From: Pseudomonas sp. FP2335
GTDB lineage: Bacteria; Pseudomonadota; Gammaproteobacteria; Pseudomonadales; Pseudomonadaceae
DNA length: 64,000 nt
Assembly: GCF_030687535.1 (NCBI RefSeq)
Contig: NZ_CP117437.1
Coordinates: 186,001 to 250,000, forward strand
Reading direction: 5' to 3'
Positions within the stretch are counted from its first letter, which is position 1; every line of letters begins with the position of its first letter. The notes beneath the pieces are model-generated. The model was not told the origin of the DNA, searched no databases, and saw nothing but the letters and a program-made list of their open reading frames with translations. The position numbers and the translations under genes are program-made. Positions 16,165 through 26,756 of this stretch are shown piece after piece.

Positions 16165-16176
16165 CTCAACGCCCAC

Positions 16177-16211
16177 AAAAAAGCCCCAGGCCATTCGACC
16201 TGGGGCTTTTT
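16177..16211. terminator. Intrinsic terminator after the sigma/anti-sigma operon
   Basis: aaaaaagccccagg pairs with cctggggcttttt around the loop ccattcga. Strong stem with T-run on the plus strand and A-run in front. Confidence 0.95.
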
Positions 16212-16221
16212 CGTCTGTATC

Positions 16222-16245
16222 TGGTGCCCCCGGCGTCGTTTGAAC
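16222..16245. other. Candidate island left end: degenerate tRNA-Arg 3'-end copy (attL-like)
   Basis: These 24 bases match 26680-26703, the CCA end and T-arm of tRNA-Arg, at 19 of 24 positions (tggtgc, cccggcg, tt, gaac conserved). Orientation is the same. Since the tRNA is on the minus strand with its 3' end facing left, an element integrated at its 3' end would leave its distal repeat here. It lies immediately after the terminator at 16177-16211. The divergence means an old event or chance; about even odds or better. Confidence 0.5.
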
Positions 16246-16303
16246 TGGAGGGTGAGAGCCCCGTATTCATTGGGTATGTTTGATGGCGAGTCAGTTAGGC
16301 ATA

Positions 16304-16322
16304 CATGTGGGCATACACGGCG
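16304..16322. repeat. 19-bp repeat near left island end (pair with 26545-26563)
   Basis: The sequence around gtgggcatacacggcg matches 26545-26563 at 17 of 19 positions, same orientation. One copy lies just inside each proposed island end. They could be integrase arm-type sites or remnants of one duplicated segment. Confidence 0.4.
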
Positions 16323-16409
16323 CGTCCTTCTGGACACTTTTTTCGTGGTATCCCCGTAGGGTAAAGCAACACCAAATGGTTACTGATGTGGTGCCTTCCA
16401 GCTGAGTCG

Positions 16410-16631
16410 TTACTTCTTCGTTCGACCTTCTGCCGCCAGTGATGCGAGCGCAAGGGTGATGAATCCTGCATTTTCATCAAGGGTATCCAGTGCCCCTCGA
16501 ATGTTCTGTGCAACTTCCGTAGATCCGCTTTGCTCAACCCAGTTTGACAGCTCCTCGATAGCTGCCCCCAGCGCCAGTTGGTTTTCATTCATGCGCTTGA
16601 GTAATGACGCAAGCAAAGGGGTGTCTTCCAT
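16410..16631 (-). CDS. Small hypothetical protein, 73 aa
   Basis: A short, acidic, probably all-helical protein (LLASLLKRMNENQLALGAAI near the start, LDENAGFITLALASL near the end, basic tail GRTKK). No domain recognised. Small proteins of this kind are frequent in Pseudomonas mobile elements, and it lies just inside the proposed left end of the island. The ribosome site is weak, but the composition is that of a real helical protein rather than a random frame. Confidence 0.6.
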   Translation of the reverse strand: MEDTPLLASLLKRMNENQLALGAAIEELSNWVEQSGSTEVAQNIRGALDTLDENAGFITLALASLAAEGRTKK

Positions 16632-17678
16632 GATGGTCTCTCGCCGTTTTGTCAGGTAGTCAATCTACCTCGAGCCAGTGGCATTGCATATCAGCTGTCC
16701 TCACCACCTGGTGATCATAAATCATGGCGACCATCTTGATTCACTAGAGGCCAACAATGTGGTGTAGGACCAATTTGGAAAGACAGCATGAGCGCACATA
16801 CCCAACCCCCTCCAAAACTGGTGTAACTGGTGTTACGAGTGTAACACCCTCCACCAAACGCCCGTTTTCATTGGCTTTCACGCCTGTTACACAGTTGAGC
16901 GGCATCGCGTACATCGGATGTAACGCTGCCCGTGCGTGTAACGCTAACGTCAGCATCCAGATGTCGTGGGCAGGCGCTTTGCGCTCCAGCCTACCAAGCG
17001 AATTTCGCTTGCTCCGCCTCTCGATGACAGGAAATCACGCTGGGGACCCTGAGAGGTTTCGCGTTACACGGGGCATGAAACCCGCGGGATCGTGGTAGCG
17101 GCAACTACACCAGCTTACTGAAATTTCAATGTTGAAATTGAAAGGATTTTGAAGAGAAAAGGCTACCTTTACCGTATTGGTCACGGTGCTCGCAGATGGC
17201 TGAAATGGTAGGGCAAATGCACAAGTTAATGGAATTCACTGGGGACCTTCCAGCGGAGACAATCTCGCAGTATCCGCTGTCATCGTTCAGATGAGTCTAA
17301 GTGCTCACTTCGTATTAATGATAAATATTTCACATCCTCGCCGCTGAGGGGATGATAAACGGGGTAGGGGGGATGACGATATCTAGAGGTGTAGTCTGCG
17401 TAACGAATAAGCTTAGGTTATTGATTTTATTAGGTAATTAAAAGCGTACGCCCTGTTGAAGGTAATGAGAGTTCTGGTGGATCGAACTTGGAGTGTGGAG
17501 CTGGTCGCGATCACTAGTGTTTGCTCGGCTGACTTCTTAACAACCTAAGAGGAGGGAGTGTTGCTCCTTCGTTGAAGTTGAAATGAGTGGGTAAAACTTT
17601 TACGTTCTACTCTCCCCTCCGTGGTGGCATTATGCTCCCTCGTCACTATTAAAATAACGACAGCAAGGAGCAACCGTT
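16632..17678. other. 1-kb non-coding stretch at the left of the island
   Basis: The first half holds the gttac/gtaac motif cluster described separately. The second half (about 17100-17678) becomes AT-rich and contains no supported gene. It ends with the ribosome site of the OLD nuclease gene (aaggag, 17665-17670). The start of the defence operon's transcript must lie here, but I cannot place -10/-35 boxes with confidence. Confidence 0.5.
16820..17069. repeat. Cluster of gtaac/gttac motifs including a perfect 8-bp inverted repeat
   Basis: ggtgttac (16829-16836) and gtaacacc (16841-16848) form a perfect inverted repeat with a 4-nt spacer. Further tgtaac or gttaca hexamers lie at about 16822, 16885, 16919, 16938 and 17063. 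The density and symmetry look like iterons or operator half-sites rather than chance. In some primase-helicase proteins of related elements similar DNA encodes a VTGVT-rich linker, so a coding remnant is the alternative. Confidence 0.45.
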
Positions 17679-19763
17679 TTGTATATAGCCCATGTGAAAA
17701 TTGAGAATTTCCGACTCTTTGGCGCGGATGATCAAGCATTTGAACTCTCACTCAACCCTGGTTTGACCGCGTTTGTTGGTGAAAACGATGCAGGAAAAAC
17801 GGCGTTGGTGGATGCTCTGAGATTTGTCTTAGGGACCCGTGATCAAGAGTCGTTGAGGCTCGAACAAACAGACTTTCATTTGCCGTCATCTGGTGAACAG
17901 GCTAAAGAAATCAAGATTCGTCTCGTTTTTTTGGGACTGACCGCGGGCGATCGGAGCGCCTTTGCAGAATATCTTACTTATTCTAACGAGGGATCGGATA
18001 CGGTTCTTATATTAACTTGGATTGCGCGTCGAACTGAGATTAGCTCCAGCTCGCGACGATATATACCCATTGAGTGGCGAACTGGAAAGAATGGAGATGG
18101 GCCTCTGCTTGATTCTGGCGCGCGGTTTATGTTGCAAGCGACTTACTTGCGACCATTGAGAGATGCCGAAAGAGCTATGTCTGCTGGGCGAGGTTCAAGG
18201 CTCTCTCAAATTTTACAACACACAAAAGAAATTCGCGATCACGGTGTAAGGTTTGACTTGAAAACGATGCCAAGGCCAGTGCCTGAAGATCTCAGTGTTC
18301 TTGGTATAGGAGATTACTCTAGTCACTTAATAGAAAATGCCCATGGGGTGAAAACCACCCGAGAAAAGCTGAATAGGGATTACTTGCAGCCGCTGTCTTT
18401 CAAAGATGATGATTTAGCGGCGAGAATAAGAATTAGTGGTCATCGCGATGATGGGGTGAGGCTTAGGCAGCTTCTTGAAAAGTTAGAAGTTAACTTAGGT
18501 GTTGGTCTGGAGGATCCCTATCTGCGAGGTTTAGGCTCCAATAATCTGTTGTTTATGGCTTGTGAGCTTCTCTTGATGGGAACTGAGGCAGATGGGTTTC
18601 CACTGCTTCTCATCGAAGAGCCCGAAGCTCATCTACATCCACAGCGTCAACTACGGTTAATTTCATTTCTTAAAAGCCAAGCCGAAAAACGTCGGTTAGA
18701 CGGCCAGCAGATTCAGATAATTGTAACAACCCATAGTCCGAATTTTGGCGCTGATGTCAAACTCGACAATCTTGTTTTAATTAAGGACGGACGCGGCTTT
18801 TCAATGGCAAAAGGAAACACCAAACTTACCGAGTCCGATTACCGCTTTTTACAACGCTTTCTTGACGTAACTAAGTCCAATCTATTTTTTGCTCGTGGTG
18901 TTGTGATAGTAGAAGGGGATGCTGAAAATATACTGATGCCGACCTTAGCTAAGCTAGTTGGCCGGGATTTCGAACATTACGGAGTGTCGATAGTCAATGT
19001 CGGCGGTGTAGGCTTAGGGCGATACGGGCGCATATTTATTCGAGAAACTCCAGGTGTTGATGGTGAGCTAAAAATTCCAGTTTCCTGCATCACAGATATG
19101 GACGTAATGCCGGACTGTGCTCCGCATATAATAGGGAAGCTAGAACTCTCTACACCTATACCACCTCTTACGGTTTCTAAACGTCGGTGGAGGGTTAAGT
19201 CAGACTTTCCAGGATGCAAACTGGAGGAGAAACGAAGCACTATCAGGGATAAAGCGAACGAACAATGGGTTAAAACTTTCGTAGCAGATGAATGGACACT
19301 GGAATACGACTTGGCTTTTTTCGGGTTAAGTGAGCAGTTGTTTCTTGCTGCTGCACTTGCAAAAAATGATGATAAGTTGAACGAGGGGGCAATTAAAAGA
19401 TTGGATGTAATATCAGCAGCTCGGAAAGAGTACTCTGTTTTGTTAGCCAAATCTCTTTCAAATGAAGAGCTTTCTTCTACTGTTTACGCTCCATATACAA
19501 CCTCGGCAGTATCTAAGGCTATAGCTGCTCAATATTTGTCTGAAATATTAGAAGATGAAATGCGCAATGGGTTACTGTCCGTAGATACCCTAATAGGGCA
19601 ACTGCCTCCTTACATAAAGAACGCAATAGCTCATGTTACAGAGCAATTTTCTATCACGGTTCCACCAAAAAAATCTGATGTTACAGTCAATCAAGATACT
19701 CCTTCTGTTTCGACGCCGACAACACCGGCATCACCAACTGTTCTAGATGGTAAATCTGCATAG
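17679..19763 (+). CDS. OLD-family ATPase / TOPRIM nuclease (GajA-like)
   Basis: 694 residues, TTG start at 17679 with aaggag 8 nt upstream. N-terminal ABC-type ATPase: Walker A GENDAGKT (34-41), signature-like LGSNNLLFMA, Walker B LLLIEEPEAHLHP (309-321), H-loop VTTHSP. C-terminal TOPRIM nuclease: acidic VEGDAE (Glu412, Glu416) and the metal-binding pair DMD (Asp473, Asp475). A Pro/Thr/Ser-rich tail ends the protein. With the UvrD-like helicase 10 nt downstream this is the layout of class 2 OLD proteins, as in Gabija GajA-GajB, where the nuclease cuts phage DNA when nucleotides are depleted. It is somewhat longer than the ~580-residue GajA I recall. Base composition is clearly more AT-rich than the chromosome. 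Confidence 0.85.
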   Translation: MYIAHVKIENFRLFGADDQAFELSLNPGLTAFVGENDAGKTALVDALRFVLGTRDQESLRLEQTDFHLPSSGEQAKEIKIRLVFLGLTAGDRSAFAEYLTYSNEGSDTVLILTWIARRTEISSSSRRYIPIEWRTGKNGDGPLLDSGARFMLQATYLRPLRDAERAMSAGRGSRLSQILQHTKEIRDHGVRFDLKTMPRPVPEDLSVLGIGDYSSHLIENAHGVKTTREKLNRDYLQPLSFKDDDLAARIRISGHRDDGVRLRQLLEKLEVNLGVGLEDPYLRGLGSNNLLFMACELLLMGTEADGFPLLLIEEPEAHLHPQRQLRLISFLKSQAEKRRLDGQQIQIIVTTHSPNFGADVKLDNLVLIKDGRGFSMAKGNTKLTESDYRFLQRFLDVTKSNLFFARGVVIVEGDAENILMPTLAKLVGRDFEHYGVSIVNVGGVGLGRYGRIFIRETPGVDGELKIPVSCITDMDVMPDCAPHIIGKLELSTPIPPLTVSKRRWRVKSDFPGCKLEEKRSTIRDKANEQWVKTFVADEWTLEYDLAFFGLSEQLFLAAALAKNDDKLNEGAIKRLDVISAARKEYSVLLAKSLSNEELSSTVYAPYTTSAVSKAIAAQYLSEILEDEMRNGLLSVDTLIGQLPPYIKNAIAHVTEQFSITVPPKKSDVTVNQDTPSVSTPTTPASPTVLDGKSA

Positions 19764-19773
19764 GGCGCGAGCG

Positions 19774-21771
19774 ATGACAGGCTTTAAAGAAATAGTTGGG
19801 AACATTTCTAAATTGGATGTCGAATGGGTTTGCTCTGCTATGGGTTTACCTCTAAATGCTTTTTCCGGTGAGGATGGTTTAGATCCAAGATATGCAGCAC
19901 TTTGCTCATTAGATTCGTTGGATGTGGAAGCTTGTCCTGGAAGTGGAAAAACAACATTGTTAGTTGCGAAGCTCGCAATACTTGCTAACCGTTGGCAACC
20001 AAAGCAGCAAGGACTCTGCGTAATTTCTCATACAAATGCTGCCCGTTTGGAAATTGGGGAGCGACTTAGCTCAGGTACAGCAGCGCAACGATTATTACGG
20101 TATCCCCATTTTGTGGGAACAATTCATTCTTTTGTTAATGAGTTTTTGGCGGTTCCCTGGCTTCGTTCAAAGGGAATGATAGTAAAAATTATTGATACCG
20201 AACTGGCCGAGAAGGATAGATGGTACAGGCTTCCCTATGGCACTAGGAAATACTTGGAAAGTCAAAAAGAACATACTTCCCTGATATATACGAAAAGTGA
20301 CTTTTCTGGCAACCGCCATGCTTCGCACACTGATACGTCTAAGCTTATTCAGAAAGCTTGTAAGGAATCAACAGAAGCGGGTTATTACTGTTTTGATGAG
20401 ATGTTTGTCTGGGCTAATGAGCTGATTGAGAAGTTTCCTGAAGTTAAGGAAAGTATTCGTCGAAGATTTCCGATCTTATTTGTTGATGAGGTGCAAGATA
20501 ATAGTGAGCTTCAGTCTGACTTTATCAATCGGCTTTTCTGCGCAGACGAAAGTCCGGTAATTTGTCAGCGATTCGGTGATTCTAACCAAGCTATTTATAA
20601 TGCAGTAGGTTCAAGTCTAACGTCTGGTGTTTTTTTTAGCCAAAATAGGATCGACCTCCCAAATAGTTTCCGGTTTTCACAGTCTATCGCAGACTGTGCC
20701 GCCCCTCTTGGACTTATCCCTCAACCACTGATCGGTCGAGGCCCAACGTCGGGAAAAGTTAATCATCCGAGTTGTCAAAGCGCTATTTTTCTATTTGAAG
20801 ATGAAACGGTTTTAAATGTTCTTCCTAACTACGCTAAGTATTTAATTAAGGTATTCTCCGCTGATGCCCTAGCGGGTGGAGAGTTTACTGCAGTTGCAGG
20901 GGTTCATAGGTCTGATAAGGACGATCACCTCCCTCGCTTTATGGGCCATTATGCGCCCCGATATATCTCGCAGTTATCAGGGCAGCCGAAGCCAACATCA
21001 CTCTCCATGTACCTCGCGTGTGCAAGGATAGAGTTATTAAAAAATCAAAGTACGCATCCCGTATCGAATCGATCTGCTGAAGCTGTCTTGCATTTTTTGA
21101 GAGAGACAGGATTTTCAATATCCAATCCTTTGCGTAAGTCACCTTTTCGATATGTCCTCGAGTTGTTAGTCGAAAAGGAAGGGTCTAAATTACAATATTT
21201 AGAGTTGGTCGATCTTCTTATTTTGCGGAAGTGTAAATTTATAGAGAGTGAGTGGTGTGCAGTTACTGCGAAATTTAAAGTAGTGGCGGAAGCAATTGCA
21301 GGAAAAGATATCTATGGTATGGATGAGTTTTTTGCATGGTTTTCTATAGAGCCTGTGATTGATAACTCGTCGGACGTGACTCAGTCTCAGCCAAATAAGT
21401 TTCAATATCCTGAATCTGCACCGTTAGTATCTATTCGGTTAGGGTCTATACATAGTGTTAAGGGAGAGACTCACACAGCTACACTGGTGTTGGACAGTTT
21501 TCATCGCACTCATCATTTGAAGAGCCTCATTCCCTGGCTTATGCGTAAAAAACCAAAAGCGGGGGCTACTAACGTTGGGGAAAATGCTTCTCTGCAAGAG
21601 AGACTTAAGCTTCACTATGTAGCGATGACGCGCCCCTCTCACCTTCTTTGCCTCGCGATGCGGAAGGATTCATTAAAAAGTAAGGAGATTGAGAGTTTGC
21701 GCGCACTAGGTTGGGAGATTATTGATTGTGTGAATCACGAGCAGCTTGACGCGGAAAAAGCGTCTTCGTGA
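19774..21771 (+). CDS. UvrD/Rep-like superfamily 1 helicase (GajB-like)
   Basis: 665 residues. SF1A motifs are all visible: Walker A CPGSGKTT (54-61), Ia ISHTNAARLE, the TIHSF motif, II VDEVQD (237-242), III FGDSNQAIY, IV NSFRFSQSI, V GSIHSVKGETHTATLVL and VI LHYVAMTRPSHLL. The enzyme should be an active ATP-dependent 3'-5' translocase. I use ATG 19774 rather than 19747 because aggg lies about 9 nt before it and the earlier ATG has no ribosome site and falls inside the previous gene. It is longer than the ~490-residue GajB I recall. Partner of the upstream OLD nuclease. Confidence 0.85.
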   Translation: MTGFKEIVGNISKLDVEWVCSAMGLPLNAFSGEDGLDPRYAALCSLDSLDVEACPGSGKTTLLVAKLAILANRWQPKQQGLCVISHTNAARLEIGERLSSGTAAQRLLRYPHFVGTIHSFVNEFLAVPWLRSKGMIVKIIDTELAEKDRWYRLPYGTRKYLESQKEHTSLIYTKSDFSGNRHASHTDTSKLIQKACKESTEAGYYCFDEMFVWANELIEKFPEVKESIRRRFPILFVDEVQDNSELQSDFINRLFCADESPVICQRFGDSNQAIYNAVGSSLTSGVFFSQNRIDLPNSFRFSQSIADCAAPLGLIPQPLIGRGPTSGKVNHPSCQSAIFLFEDETVLNVLPNYAKYLIKVFSADALAGGEFTAVAGVHRSDKDDHLPRFMGHYAPRYISQLSGQPKPTSLSMYLACARIELLKNQSTHPVSNRSAEAVLHFLRETGFSISNPLRKSPFRYVLELLVEKEGSKLQYLELVDLLILRKCKFIESEWCAVTAKFKVVAEAIAGKDIYGMDEFFAWFSIEPVIDNSSDVTQSQPNKFQYPESAPLVSIRLGSIHSVKGETHTATLVLDSFHRTHHLKSLIPWLMRKKPKAGATNVGENASLQERLKLHYVAMTRPSHLLCLAMRKDSLKSKEIESLRALGWEIIDCVNHEQLDAEKASS

Positions 21772-21857
21772 GGTTTCGTCCTAGATAAGCACTCTTAAGT
21801 ATAGGGTTTTATAGTGCGAATTTGGAATTCCTTTTTGGACTTGTGCTGAGGAAATAT

Positions 21858-23495
21858 ATGGACATTAATGTGCAGCAGACGCCGGTGGATGAACCGGTTG
21901 CGGAGTTGAATATTGCAGTTTTGGGCGAAATAGTAAATGCGGTTAATCGTCAAGTTGCAGGAGGTTCTGAGTTACAAGATTCTAAGTTTTTATTAAATTC
22001 GGCTTATAAGATTGCCCTTGAGCGTCTTCATAAAATATTAGGTTCTAGGAATTCCGCTAGCTGGCTTTTAGAAGCATATAAGCAATTGTTTATGTGGACG
22101 GCAGTCTATAGAAAAGGGCTAATGCCTTGGCAGCATTTTGATGCTTCGGAAAGTCTTGCCCCAATTGGAAGGTACGGTTGGCGCTATGCAATTGATTATT
22201 GTCTGTCTAAAAGTAGCCCTCAGAGTCTTCAAAATGGGAAACCTAATTGCGAGGATGTGTCGAAAGTTTTCTCTATACTTGCTGTTATGACGATTTCTGC
22301 TGAGTGGTCAAATCTTATACATTACTTTCCTGATGTATACGGTGATGTAACGTTTGATCTATCCAAACCTGAAGGGATTCTGTTTCCGATATTATCTGAG
22401 GAAGCGTTGGGTAAAGTTTCTAATCGCTCCGATTACATGTTGAAAAAAGAGGGTGAGGCATGGACAAAGTTTTCGGGTTTTGAGGGTGATTATGATGATG
22501 ATCATTTAAAGCCGAAACTCAGCTCTGCTCTTCTAGAGTCAAAGGGCTTTGATTTGGATCAGCTTGAAAGATTTATCGATATTTTGCTTCACAATGTTTT
22601 ATCTTCAGGATGGGTCCTTGTAATTCCAGGGGGGTATTTGATCGATTGGATTTCAGAAGAAGGAGATATGGAGAAGAATGTAGTTATTAAAATTTTAGAT
22701 TTTATGCTTTTATCTGCCGACGCTTTAGTTAATAAGAATAGGGATTTTTTAAACAAAAAAGATCAAGTGCGTATGATAAATTTCTCGGGTGTGCGTATTG
22801 ATCGATTGAAGAACTTAAAATCAATCTATCCTAAGGAGGCAGTACATAAGCCTCATATTAAAAAGGCAAGCTGGCATGCTATTATGAATATTTTTATGGT
22901 TGCTGAGTGGTACGATACATTCATGCATCGATGCTTGGTCGGCCAGCGTCAAGATTTGAAAGCTGACCCTATATTTAATAAGGCTCTGGAAGATATCGAG
23001 CAGTATCAACGGCGTGATATTTTTGAGTCGCTAATAGGAAAGATTTTTGCATCTCATGGATTTAATTTCATTAAGGGTTTGAAGAAATGGCCGAATAAGC
23101 AGGGGAGTTCAGTAATGCTGCCTTGTGGAGAAATTGACCTGCTGGCCTATCACGAAGTGTCTCGAATATTATATGTTGTTGAGTGTAAATGTGGCGCTCC
23201 GGCAATCGATTCAAGAGGGTACTCTCAGCAGTATAATGATCATTTTGAGCAAAAAAAATATCACTCTAAATTTAAAGCGAAAATTGACTGGGTTGGTGCT
23301 AATTTAAAAGGGCTTAGTCATCTTGAACATTTGGGTTGCGGTATAGTGAAGTGTAGCCCGGTGCAGGTGGTTCCTGTATTTGTAACTAGGTATCCATCGA
23401 TAGCTAAGTTTTATGTTGACGATTATAAGGTTTTAACGTTTGCAGAGTTGGATGATTTTCTGGGTGGGCTTCTTCATGAATTTTCAAATAAGTGA
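21858..23495 (+). CDS. Large unknown protein with C-terminal PD-(D/E)xK nuclease motif
   Basis: 545 residues, ATG 21858 with gagga 5 nt upstream; a TTG at 21822 is less likely. The N-terminal ~380 residues match nothing I recognise and are mainly helical. The C-terminal part has a restriction-endonuclease-like pattern: Glu390 in IFESLIGKIF, Asp427 in GEIDLLAY, then VECK with Glu442 and Lys444, a standard alpha-beta-beta order. It lies 86 bp after the helicase gene, same strand, same low GC, and before a region of different character, so it belongs to the operon. A nuclease acting with the OLD/helicase pair is inference; the catalytic motif itself is clear. Confidence 0.8.
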   Translation: MDINVQQTPVDEPVAELNIAVLGEIVNAVNRQVAGGSELQDSKFLLNSAYKIALERLHKILGSRNSASWLLEAYKQLFMWTAVYRKGLMPWQHFDASESLAPIGRYGWRYAIDYCLSKSSPQSLQNGKPNCEDVSKVFSILAVMTISAEWSNLIHYFPDVYGDVTFDLSKPEGILFPILSEEALGKVSNRSDYMLKKEGEAWTKFSGFEGDYDDDHLKPKLSSALLESKGFDLDQLERFIDILLHNVLSSGWVLVIPGGYLIDWISEEGDMEKNVVIKILDFMLLSADALVNKNRDFLNKKDQVRMINFSGVRIDRLKNLKSIYPKEAVHKPHIKKASWHAIMNIFMVAEWYDTFMHRCLVGQRQDLKADPIFNKALEDIEQYQRRDIFESLIGKIFASHGFNFIKGLKKWPNKQGSSVMLPCGEIDLLAYHEVSRILYVVECKCGAPAIDSRGYSQQYNDHFEQKKYHSKFKAKIDWVGANLKGLSHLEHLGCGIVKCSPVQVVPVFVTRYPSIAKFYVDDYKVLTFAELDDFLGGLLHEFSNK

Positions 23496-23597
23496 GATTC
23501 GTGAGTTTGGTCTGGCACGGTGCATCAGCACAGTCGGCTGTATGGATTTGTAGCGTATATCTAAATTGTGGAGCTACAGTTTTCACAATGGTAAAAG

Positions 23598-23615
23598 CAG
23601 CCCGCGTATGCGGGC
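23598..23615 (-). terminator. Hairpin terminator for the coiled-coil gene
   Basis: agcccgc / gcgggct with a 4-nt loop. On the minus strand it is followed by gctttta, which gives a short T-run, so it mainly serves the gene ending at 23626. It may also slow transcription from the defence operon. Confidence 0.6.
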
Positions 23616-23625
23616 TGATTCGGGG

Positions 23626-24483
23626 TCATGCCGCTATTAGCTCCTCTAGGGAGATGTTACGGGCTGCTGCTGCCAAATCCGAGCGCTCAAGCTTCGAATG
23701 GAAGGGCCCGAAGCGAGGCACTTCAAGTCTAGACAAGGCATCGCCCATCCCGCCTTTTAGGTAGCTGACGGCAAGTATTCGGGCACCCACAGCAAGCAGT
23801 TGCTCCGTCGCCGCGTTCCACTCCTCATCCAATGCAAACCCCACCGCGTTCAATGCGGCTGTCTTGGATTCATCTCCTCGTTGGCGAGCACTCGTGATCT
23901 GAGCCTCAAGAGTATCAAGCTCGACTTGCAGAGCTCCAAGGATCAGGTCTTGCCTCCTGACCTGCTCGTCCGTTGTTGCCACCTGCTTAGCGGCCTTTTG
24001 CATTTCGCCGCTTGCTGATTTTTCCCCTTCGGCATCACCGCATGCGAGGCATCTGGCGTAGGACGTTGCAGCATCGCGCTCGGCTTGTTGCGCCTTTTCT
24101 AGGGCTTGATCGGCTTCTGATTGAATTGCCTGAAACCTCTCATCCAAGTGCGATTTTTTTCGTTCCAATGCTTCGACTTCATCGGTTGCGTCGGTCATTG
24201 CTCGAATAGCGTCAGCTTTAATCTGACCAATTTTTTCCAAGCGTTCCAGATGTTGGATCTTCCGATCAATTGATGCGAGCTCACCTGGAATTGCTCGTAT
24301 GCGGGCCTGGACGCTTGAAACCTTCTCCATGGCCTCGCGCTTCTCAGGGCTCCCAATTACGTTGCCATTAGCACTGAATCCGCTGGGCGCATTGCGCCAC
24401 TCAGCCTCCATTTGCGGTAGGCTTTCTTCCAGGGTTTCCAGTTCTTGAATCAAGGCGACTTGTTGCTGTTTTAGCTGGTTCAT
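23626..24483 (-). CDS. Coiled-coil hypothetical protein, 285 aa
   Basis: Heptad-rich over most of its length (QELETLEESLPQMEAEW, AIPGELASIDRKIQHLERL, VEALERKKSHLDERF, then TLEAQITSARQR), with a single CLAC dicysteine motif near residue 145. The C-terminal 80 residues are less regular. No enzymatic motif. Similar coiled-coil genes accompany DUF927 primase genes in Pseudomonas integrative elements, and here it lies 90 bp downstream of the decayed DUF927 gene on the same strand. Likely part of the old element backbone rather than of the defence cargo. GC content is higher than in the cargo. Confidence 0.7.
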   Translation of the reverse strand: MNQLKQQQVALIQELETLEESLPQMEAEWRNAPSGFSANGNVIGSPEKREAMEKVSSVQARIRAIPGELASIDRKIQHLERLEKIGQIKADAIRAMTDATDEVEALERKKSHLDERFQAIQSEADQALEKAQQAERDAATSYARCLACGDAEGEKSASGEMQKAAKQVATTDEQVRRQDLILGALQVELDTLEAQITSARQRGDESKTAALNAVGFALDEEWNAATEQLLAVGARILAVSYLKGGMGDALSRLEVPRFGPFHSKLERSDLAAAARNISLEELIAA

Positions 24484-24573
24484 GTTGCGTTCCTAAAGGC
24501 GAAAGGTTGATTGGTTTTTTTCGTTGGCAGGCCAGGCCAAGGTGAGCCTGCATTCCTCATGAAGCAGCCGTTA

Positions 24574-26383
24574 TTACGCCGCCTGGGCGCCGTGATCACC
24601 TTGTTCTGGCACTGCAACAACCACATAGCAGCGCTGCAAGCCCAGCCCCGGTAGACGCACTGCGGTCGAAGCTTTGCCATCCTTTCCAGGCTCTAAGACG
24701 CCTCGTCGCAGGAGCTCTTTGTTAACCGCACTCAGGTTCATGCCTCGGAAGATTTCGGAGCGCCACGCTTCCGGCAGCACGTAGTAAGTGTTGGTGGTGT
24801 GCAAGGCATCGCCCATGCCGTGTTCCATCGTCTTGCGAAAGCCCAGCCGATCAATCGTGCGTGGGCCGTGCTCGTCGATCTTGGCGGCGGCGGATTCCCA
24901 GCGGGTAAAGCGGCTTTCGCCAAAGCGTTCGATGACCTGGCGCAGTCGCGTCAGGATCGCATCGCCCTCGAAGTTACCGGCGCCGCCGCGTTCGGCCAGC
25001 CACGCATGCAGGCACACCCGTGCAGCGGTCGTGGCTGTACCGTCCGGCCAGCCGGTGACGCCGAAGGCGGTAGCCAACTCACCGGCCGCTGCTGCGAGCC
25101 CGAAGCGAAGGGCGGCACGTTGGGCTTGCCCGCTGGCCGAGGCTGGCAGGTTTTGGCTGATGAACTGCTCCACCGTACGGCGAACGATCACCGACCACCG
25201 GAGCATTTCCCCAGGCGCACACAGTGCGTGCAGGAAGGCGGTGAGGGGCGTGCCGTAGTATTTGGCGACACGCGCCTTGAGAGCATCGGAGAGGGCAGCA
25301 GCATCCTCAAAACCGTTCAGCACATCGAACATACCGAGACCTTTGCTCGCATCGGCTGGGACAGCGAGCATGCGCACCTCCATACCGGCTTTCAGCTCCT
25401 TGTTGGCATCTGCCATGTGCTGCGCCAACGTCTTCTCGCCCGTCGAGAGAAACAGCAAGCGCCACTCCTGCACCTGTCGGCCCGCTTGTCCTCGATCATT
25501 CGCCCGGGCCTTACCGGTGCCGTTGCCGAGCATGTAGACCGTCTCGCCGATAATGCGCGGATCGCACATGCCGATTTCATCAAGCACCAGGAGACCGTCT
25601 GAGTGTGCAGCTGCGATGGACTCCAGGGCGTTATCGGTCGAGCGCCACGAACGAACTAAGCGCGGCCCGCCATAAACCGATGCAGTGACTTGCAGGTGAG
25701 TGGTCTTGCCCCCGGACCTGTCGCCATACAGGTGGAAGCCACCCGACTCATGTCCCAGCAGGTTCAGCAACGGGCCTGCAAAGGGCACAGAAACGACAAA
25801 CGCCAAGCGATGACTTCCAACACACAGTGCGCCAATTTGTTGCTGCCATTGCTCCAGAGAGCTTGTCTTGCTGATCGGAGGCAACTGCGCCCCGGCTTCA
25901 TAAAAATGCTGGTGTTCGGCGTACGAGCTGATCTGTTGTTCGGGCAGAAGGAAGGCGTTGGCGTGCCAATTCAAGCGCGTTACCAAACGTGTGCGCTGGG
26001 CGCTGTCGAAGCCGCCGAGATAACCTGCCGGTCGTTGCGTGCGTTACGTTTGGATCGACTTCCGGCAAGGCGCAAGCCCATGTCCACCAGCGGGCCTAGT
26101 ACGTCCTTGCTGAAGTCATCGTTCTAACTGGAATGTTCCAGCGTTTTTTGGCATCGCCCGGGTCGTCGAATTCGAACAGCAAACCCCAGAGGCGAACACA
26201 CAGGACGTGCCTCACCATCATCACCTGAATAGAACGCCCCTTCAGGCTTCAAGCGAAAGCCGCCCGGCATCAGACCATTTTTCGATTTCGCTGGATGTTT
26301 GGCGTGCGCCTTGGCGTTCTGTTCTTGAAGTTAAGTTGGCTCAGAGGCACCGCCAACTCGCCCTTGCGCGAGAGCTCTGCCAT
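24574..26383 (-). pseudogene. DUF927 primase-helicase, N-terminal half broken by frameshifts
   Basis: An intact frame of 470 residues (24574-25986) carries the DUF927 ATPase core: Walker A GDRSGGKTT, Walker B-like GLLVLDEIG, and the family's downstream GNGTGKARA. Family members extend much further upstream, and that part is present but in different frames: YLGGFDSAQRTR joined to the start of the intact frame, DMGLRLAGSRSKRNA one frame off (about 26030-26115), WGLLFEFDDPGDAKKRW in another (about 26125-26190), and MPGGFRLKPEGAFYSG in a third (about 26215-26270). A plausible original start is the ATG at 26383 (MAELSRKGEL). At least four frameshifts separate them. The element's replication gene is therefore dead or reduced to its C-terminal part. 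Confidence 0.75.
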
Positions 26384-26544
26384 GTGTCCAAGCGGTCCAG
26401 CCTTTGGCTAATGCGTCCGTGCATCGTCACCGCCTGCCCATTTGCCACCTTGATGAGCGTCGGCTTGCCACGTTTGTTGCTGGGCTTGGGCTTGAACACT
26501 TCGAGCACAATTCGTTTTACTGACGCGACACCCAACTCAATCAG

Positions 26545-26563
26545 CACGTGGGCATATACGGCG
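26545..26563. repeat. 19-bp repeat near right island end (pair with 16304-16322)
   Basis: Seventeen of 19 positions match the copy at 16304-16322 in the same orientation. It lies 116 bp inside the tRNA end of the proposed island. Confidence 0.4.
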
Positions 26564-26608
26564 TGAAGTTGAAGTTATAGAGGGGGACAGGGACGGATAG
26601 CCAGAAAC

Positions 26609-26679: not shown

Positions 26680-26756
26680 TGGTGCACCCGGCGGGATTCG
26701 AACCCACGACCCCTGCCTTCGGAGGGCAGTACTCTATCCAGCTGAGCTACGGATGC
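26680..26756 (-). tRNA. tRNA-Arg, anticodon CCG
   Basis: 77 nt. On the minus strand it starts gcatccgtagctcagctgg and ends gggtgcacca, with encoded CCA. The anticodon loop ctCCGaa sits on the stem ctgcc/ggcag, giving anticodon CCG (Arg CGG codons). The T-arm has the invariant ggttcgaat. The gene lies upstream of gabD, as I recall for P. aeruginosa. The 3' end faces the island, consistent with use as an integration site. Confidence 0.95.

Follow-up and report, generated by a model that had tools for sequence, protein, structure and literature searches.

The window, by which we mean the whole 64,000-nucleotide (nt) stretch of Pseudomonas sp. FP2335 DNA analyzed here, contains three consecutive forward-strand genes that an earlier note, made from the sequence alone, had read as one extended, Gabija-like defense operon. 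The first, gajA (17679..19763), starts with TTG and encodes an OLD-family ATPase/TOPRIM nuclease of 694 amino acids (aa); gajB (19774..21771) opens with an ATG 10 nt past the gajA stop codon and encodes a UvrD-like superfamily 1 (SF1) helicase of 665 aa. The third gene (21858..23495, ATG start) encodes a 545-aa protein with an N-terminal helical part and a C-terminal PD-(D/E)xK domain, which we propose to be a separate defense gene and refer to as the short Upx-like gene. As the earlier note had stated, all three are low in G+C (GC) content (44.5%, 43.0%, and 39.0%, respectively, versus ~60% in most flanking kilobases). The explanation we favor, with a probability of roughly 0.84, is that two separate defense systems adjoin each other in a tRNA-Arg hotspot island, namely a regular Gabija and a single-gene short Upx-like nuclease. 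This reading is built on observed sequence and fold relationships, on catalytic motifs, and on the separate occurrence of the two systems elsewhere.

GajA matched the PADLOC GajA profile (PDLC00099) with an E-value of 1.4e-199 over residues 1-657, and GajB the PADLOC GajB profile (PDLC00105) with 1.1e-174. In the Pfam scan, GajA gave AAA_15 and OLD-like_TOPRIM above cut-off and GajB gave UvrD-helicase (E 7.3e-24); both the PADLOC and the Pfam run for GajB used the frame starting at 19747, a mechanically listed start to which we prefer the ATG at 19774 because aligned homologues mostly open at the later ATG. GajA carries a Walker A motif (GENDAGKT at 34), LLIEEPE at 310, EGD at 412, and DMD at 473-475, and the acidic residues already pointed out in the earlier note (E412, D473, D475) are invariant in 9/9 aligned GajA sequences. 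The complete set of SF1 motifs expected 10 nt downstream was likewise found in GajB (GSGKT, VDEVQD, GDSNQAIY, GSIHSVKGET, and YVAMTR, with RF at 300-301), the motifs of both proteins being conserved among aligned relatives. Profile and motif matches support the predicted identity of the two as a regular Gabija pair, an identity that the earlier note had also proposed. Its further statement that both proteins exceed canonical length applies relative to the GajA chains in the PDB, but not relative to the PADLOC models (626 positions for GajA, 649 for GajB) and to relatives: since relatives without frame breaks (plasmids and Pseudomonas loci) span 672-777 aa for GajA and 660-717 aa for GajB, with plasmid lengths taken from annotation and Pseudomonas lengths measured on open frames beginning at the first available start codon, the window proteins with their 694 and 665 aa are of usual size within this branch. 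The plasmid collection yielded 13 records with a GajA at least 60% identical, their GajB proteins being 45-55% identical; six of the 20 plasmids listed (H1, H2, H4, H5, H7, H8) were inspected with their annotation. On two Cupriavidus plasmids (L056:3841-11060 and L058:3760-11060), genes for a phage-integrase-family protein and for a Shedu nuclease lie ahead of a close Gabija pair, which is a further example of stacked nuclease defenses.

GajA and GajB homologues assemble into a ring-shaped octamer whose cutting of DNA is controlled by nucleotides (PMC10822852), and a GajA tetramer core with GajB dimers is described in PMC10781630. For P. aeruginosa Gabija, a preprint (PMC12407980) reports that circularization of phage DNA free of RecBCD is blocked; phage protection by Gabija homologues is described in PMC10822852 and PMC12407980. 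By analogy, the window GajA, as ATPase and TOPRIM DNA nuclease, and GajB, as SF1 helicase, would act together as a complex against the DNA of invading phages.

For the third gene, too, a later start (21858) is preferred over the mechanically listed one (21822), because most homologues in the alignment start at that ATG; the sequence reads GAGGA directly before this ATG. A protein search returned 47 clusters, among them its own and two fragments; a profile made from 28 rows (the window protein plus 27 of the 47 clusters) recovered the identical 47. The closest homologue, P0002, is 78% identical, and further homologues come from P. putida, P. peli, P. bubulae, P. monteilii, and P. viridiflava. 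F389, E390, G424, I426, D427, E442, and K444 are the same in all 28 aligned rows, and E425 is nearly invariant. The PD-(D/E)xK motif recognized in the earlier note is thus conserved, and the predicted function as a PD-(D/E)xK nuclease is supported. Queries of the window protein against Pfam, PADLOC, NCBIfam, and PHROGs yielded no family name. Its AlphaFold2 model (predicted local distance difference test score, pLDDT, 86) matches the structure of Upx (9wuf), residues 7-535 fitting Upx 725-1272 in fold, i.e., helical part plus nuclease domain. The family profile against 9wuf gave an E-value of 2.9e-4, and the sequence alignment with Upx is collinear, with ~12% identity in the structural alignment. 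Upx is reportedly a single-gene PD-(D/E)xK defense protein, attributed to Gao et al. in 2020. In our model, the helical part of the third protein would probably sense DNA or a phage-dependent state, a possible trigger, whereupon the site composed of E390, GEID424-427, and ExK442-444 would cut DNA, its putative substrate. Protection against phages would be expected of either system. Elsewhere in the same genome (C1:2961359-2963005; L054:6360-8006, reverse strand), a lone 548-aa open reading frame (ORF) between PEP-mutase and LysR genes has a C-terminal part resembling the nuclease domain of the third protein (E 1.3e-16) and gave no Pfam or PADLOC match.

Scans for the third gene led to seven loci in the species-genome collection and to two viral contigs, and the same two contigs came up when viral contigs were scanned again with 14 Bacteroidota-like members. 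Once L010, a duplicate of the P. fulva locus (L003), is set aside, eight distinct loci besides the window remain. BLASTP with the window proteins (E 1e-3, ORFs of at least 80 aa) detected GajA or GajB at none of the eight, with flanks covering 10 kb to either side at six loci, 6.5 kb upstream at L004, and 2.7 kb upstream on a viral contig (L009). Among 398 Pseudomonas genomes, the third protein had matches in nine, full-length in three: one is the window genome, and the other two, as coordinates and alignments agree, are the loci from P. gingeri and P. fulva included above; the remaining six are partial, that in G040 sitting within an Upx. GajB at E 1e-60 or better is carried by 16 of the 398 genomes, the window genome included. 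At all 16 Pseudomonas places outside the window, GajA adjoins GajB, in some cases as split frames, and the third gene was found at none of them in the DNA covered downstream (6 kb, except 4.5 kb at L047 and 71 nt, up to the contig end, at L053). On a viral contig whose GajA is 47% identical, the third gene is likewise absent over 4.9 kb, and tblastn searches of 72,556 plasmid records and 50,697 phage records with the third protein gave no match. At the loci surveyed, homologues of the third gene therefore occur away from the Gabija pair, and its membership in an extended Gabija system, as put forward in the earlier note, was not supported by this neighborhood survey.

Restriction-modification genes lie within ~4.5 kb of the short Upx-like gene at 3/8 loci: type I systems at L005, with just a YgjP-like gene between, and at L004, 3.1 kb off, and type IIG plus type II methyltransferase genes 4.4 kb away at L008. 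PADLOC was run on chosen neighbors (10 proteins from five loci and two more separately), and those chosen at L002, L006, and L007 had no match below E 0.001. In P. fulva (L003), the short Upx-like gene adjoins a tyrosine integrase gene. At three of the four Bacteroidota loci, it is directly followed by a Crr6-family gene (PF08847, above the Pfam cut-off) encoding 159-170 aa (L006:11469-11948, L007:11509-12021, L008:11451-11948); these are mutually homologous and possibly form a two-gene unit with it. The P. gingeri locus (L002:8257-11778) and the viral contig (L009:926-4446) have in common a 3.5-kb block, 86% identical and the only common part in the DNA compared, which holds a gene without Pfam match (267 and 264 aa, respectively) ahead of the short Upx-like gene; we regard this block as a mobile cassette.

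How, then, is the arrangement in the window best explained? That GajAB has recruited the third nuclease and thereby gained a second cutting activity would fit the common strand, the adjacency, the low GC content of all three genes, and the 86-nt gap between gajB and the third gene (21772..21857), in which a pattern scan found neither a sigma-70-like promoter nor an intrinsic terminator. For these reasons of strand, distance, and scan result the three genes may share a transcript, although a shared transcript by itself is no evidence for a joint machine. With the two kinds of locus separate in the survey (including the place with only 71 nt downstream) and on plasmids, with GajA and GajB of normal size, and with Upx as the kin of the third protein, we consider a three-gene Gabija very unlikely. 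Alternatively, the third gene could represent one half of an Upx-like system that is split, with the missing function coming in trans from GajAB or an unlinked gene in this case and from a small neighbor elsewhere (Crr6-like in Bacteroidota, the 267-aa protein in P. gingeri). The ~725 N-terminal Upx residues that the third protein lacks, the recurrent Crr6-family gene, and the small gene within the 3.5-kb block speak for this possibility, whereas the partners vary by group, the window yielded neither of these small genes, and phmmer detected no homologue of the N-terminal Upx half among ORFs of at least 80 aa in the window and the loci checked, a test that is insensitive because it missed the C-terminal half as well. 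On balance, we judge a split system unlikely. That the third gene is the carrying mobile element's own DNA-processing nuclease, with no role in defense, could be argued from the homologues beside the P. fulva integrase and on the viral contig; given that others lie near restriction-modification genes, that the fold match is a defense protein, and that its GC content of 39% differs from the 54-62% of the presumed element remnants in the island, we regard this as improbable.

Several points weigh against two separate systems. The hhalign probability to a single Upx was just 70%, and the PADLOC Upx model gave no match to the window protein (0 families); it matched 4/28 family rows weakly (best E 1.6e-4), and these matches are not Upx-specific because HEC-02B reached the same best E-value, with 2/28 rows. 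The gap scan fits a single transcript. Upstream of the short Upx-like gene on the viral contig L009, the view extends over 2.7 kb only, and a highly divergent Gabija might escape a BLASTP search at E 1e-3 with the window proteins as queries. Finally, as the contig neighbors of P0002 are unreadable, there is a slim chance of a small three-gene branch in close relatives; neighbors could be read for only a minority of the 47 clusters. Nonetheless, we hold to a regular Gabija and a short Upx-like nuclease side by side, which would act independently of each other, without mutual dependence, albeit possibly from a common transcript.

The surroundings are in line with the tRNA-associated island named in the earlier note. 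Relative to G017, the closest relative compared, homology ends at ~16214 and returns at ~26596, so that the variable island (16214..26596, approximate limits) measures ~10.4 kb and adjoins at its right edge a tRNA-Arg (CCG) gene on the reverse strand (26680..26756). In G005, G010, G011, and G016, left-side homology stops earlier than in G017, and at this position each of the five relatives compared has ~0.7-3.6 kb instead of the 10.4 kb. Downstream of the third gene, on the reverse strand, lie genes for a 285-aa coiled-coil-like protein (23626..24483; GC 53.9%) with weak SMC/SbcC-like matches only and for a 470-aa DUF927 primase-helicase (24574..25986; GC 61.6%; Pfam DUF927, E 2.3e-52; PHROG DNA primase, E 4.5e-64). 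Both are probably remnants of the element that carried the island; the ORFs scanned included no recognizable integrase. The primase-helicase also has a weak match to SCCmec Cch1. At the left edge of the island, a short stretch (16173-16235) resembles tRNA-Arg-adjacent sequence in 3/5 relatives, as though left behind by an old integration.

These results correct the label 'extended Gabija' and assign kinship with Upx to a nuclease family for which the named databases gave the window protein no name. Tentatively, and with a chance that we put slightly short of even, short Upx-like nucleases of 519-590 aa may constitute a phage-defense system of their own that is missed by defense-gene finders, operating either in the absence of the large N-terminal portion that Upx has or together with an exchangeable small partner such as the Crr6-like protein of Bacteroidota or the 267-aa protein of P. 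gingeri. The short form would mark the shared portion of Upx as its nuclease core, raising the question of what role the other half plays. Among known systems, Gabija is matched by the window pair near full length in both profiles, with like motifs and gene order; nothing essential differs, although the proteins of the window branch are longer than the solved GajA chains (578 residues). The third protein has the helical part followed by the PD-(D/E)xK nuclease of the C-terminal half of Upx, but comprises 545 aa as opposed to ~1270 aa. The CRISPR ancillary nucleases Card1, Can2, and Cdn1 differ in that the alignment spans 113-148 residues only, and none of them is among the 50 matches listed for residues 1-380 of the third protein. 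Shedu SduA, a PD-(D/E)xK defense nuclease, can likewise be placed among the nearest known systems.
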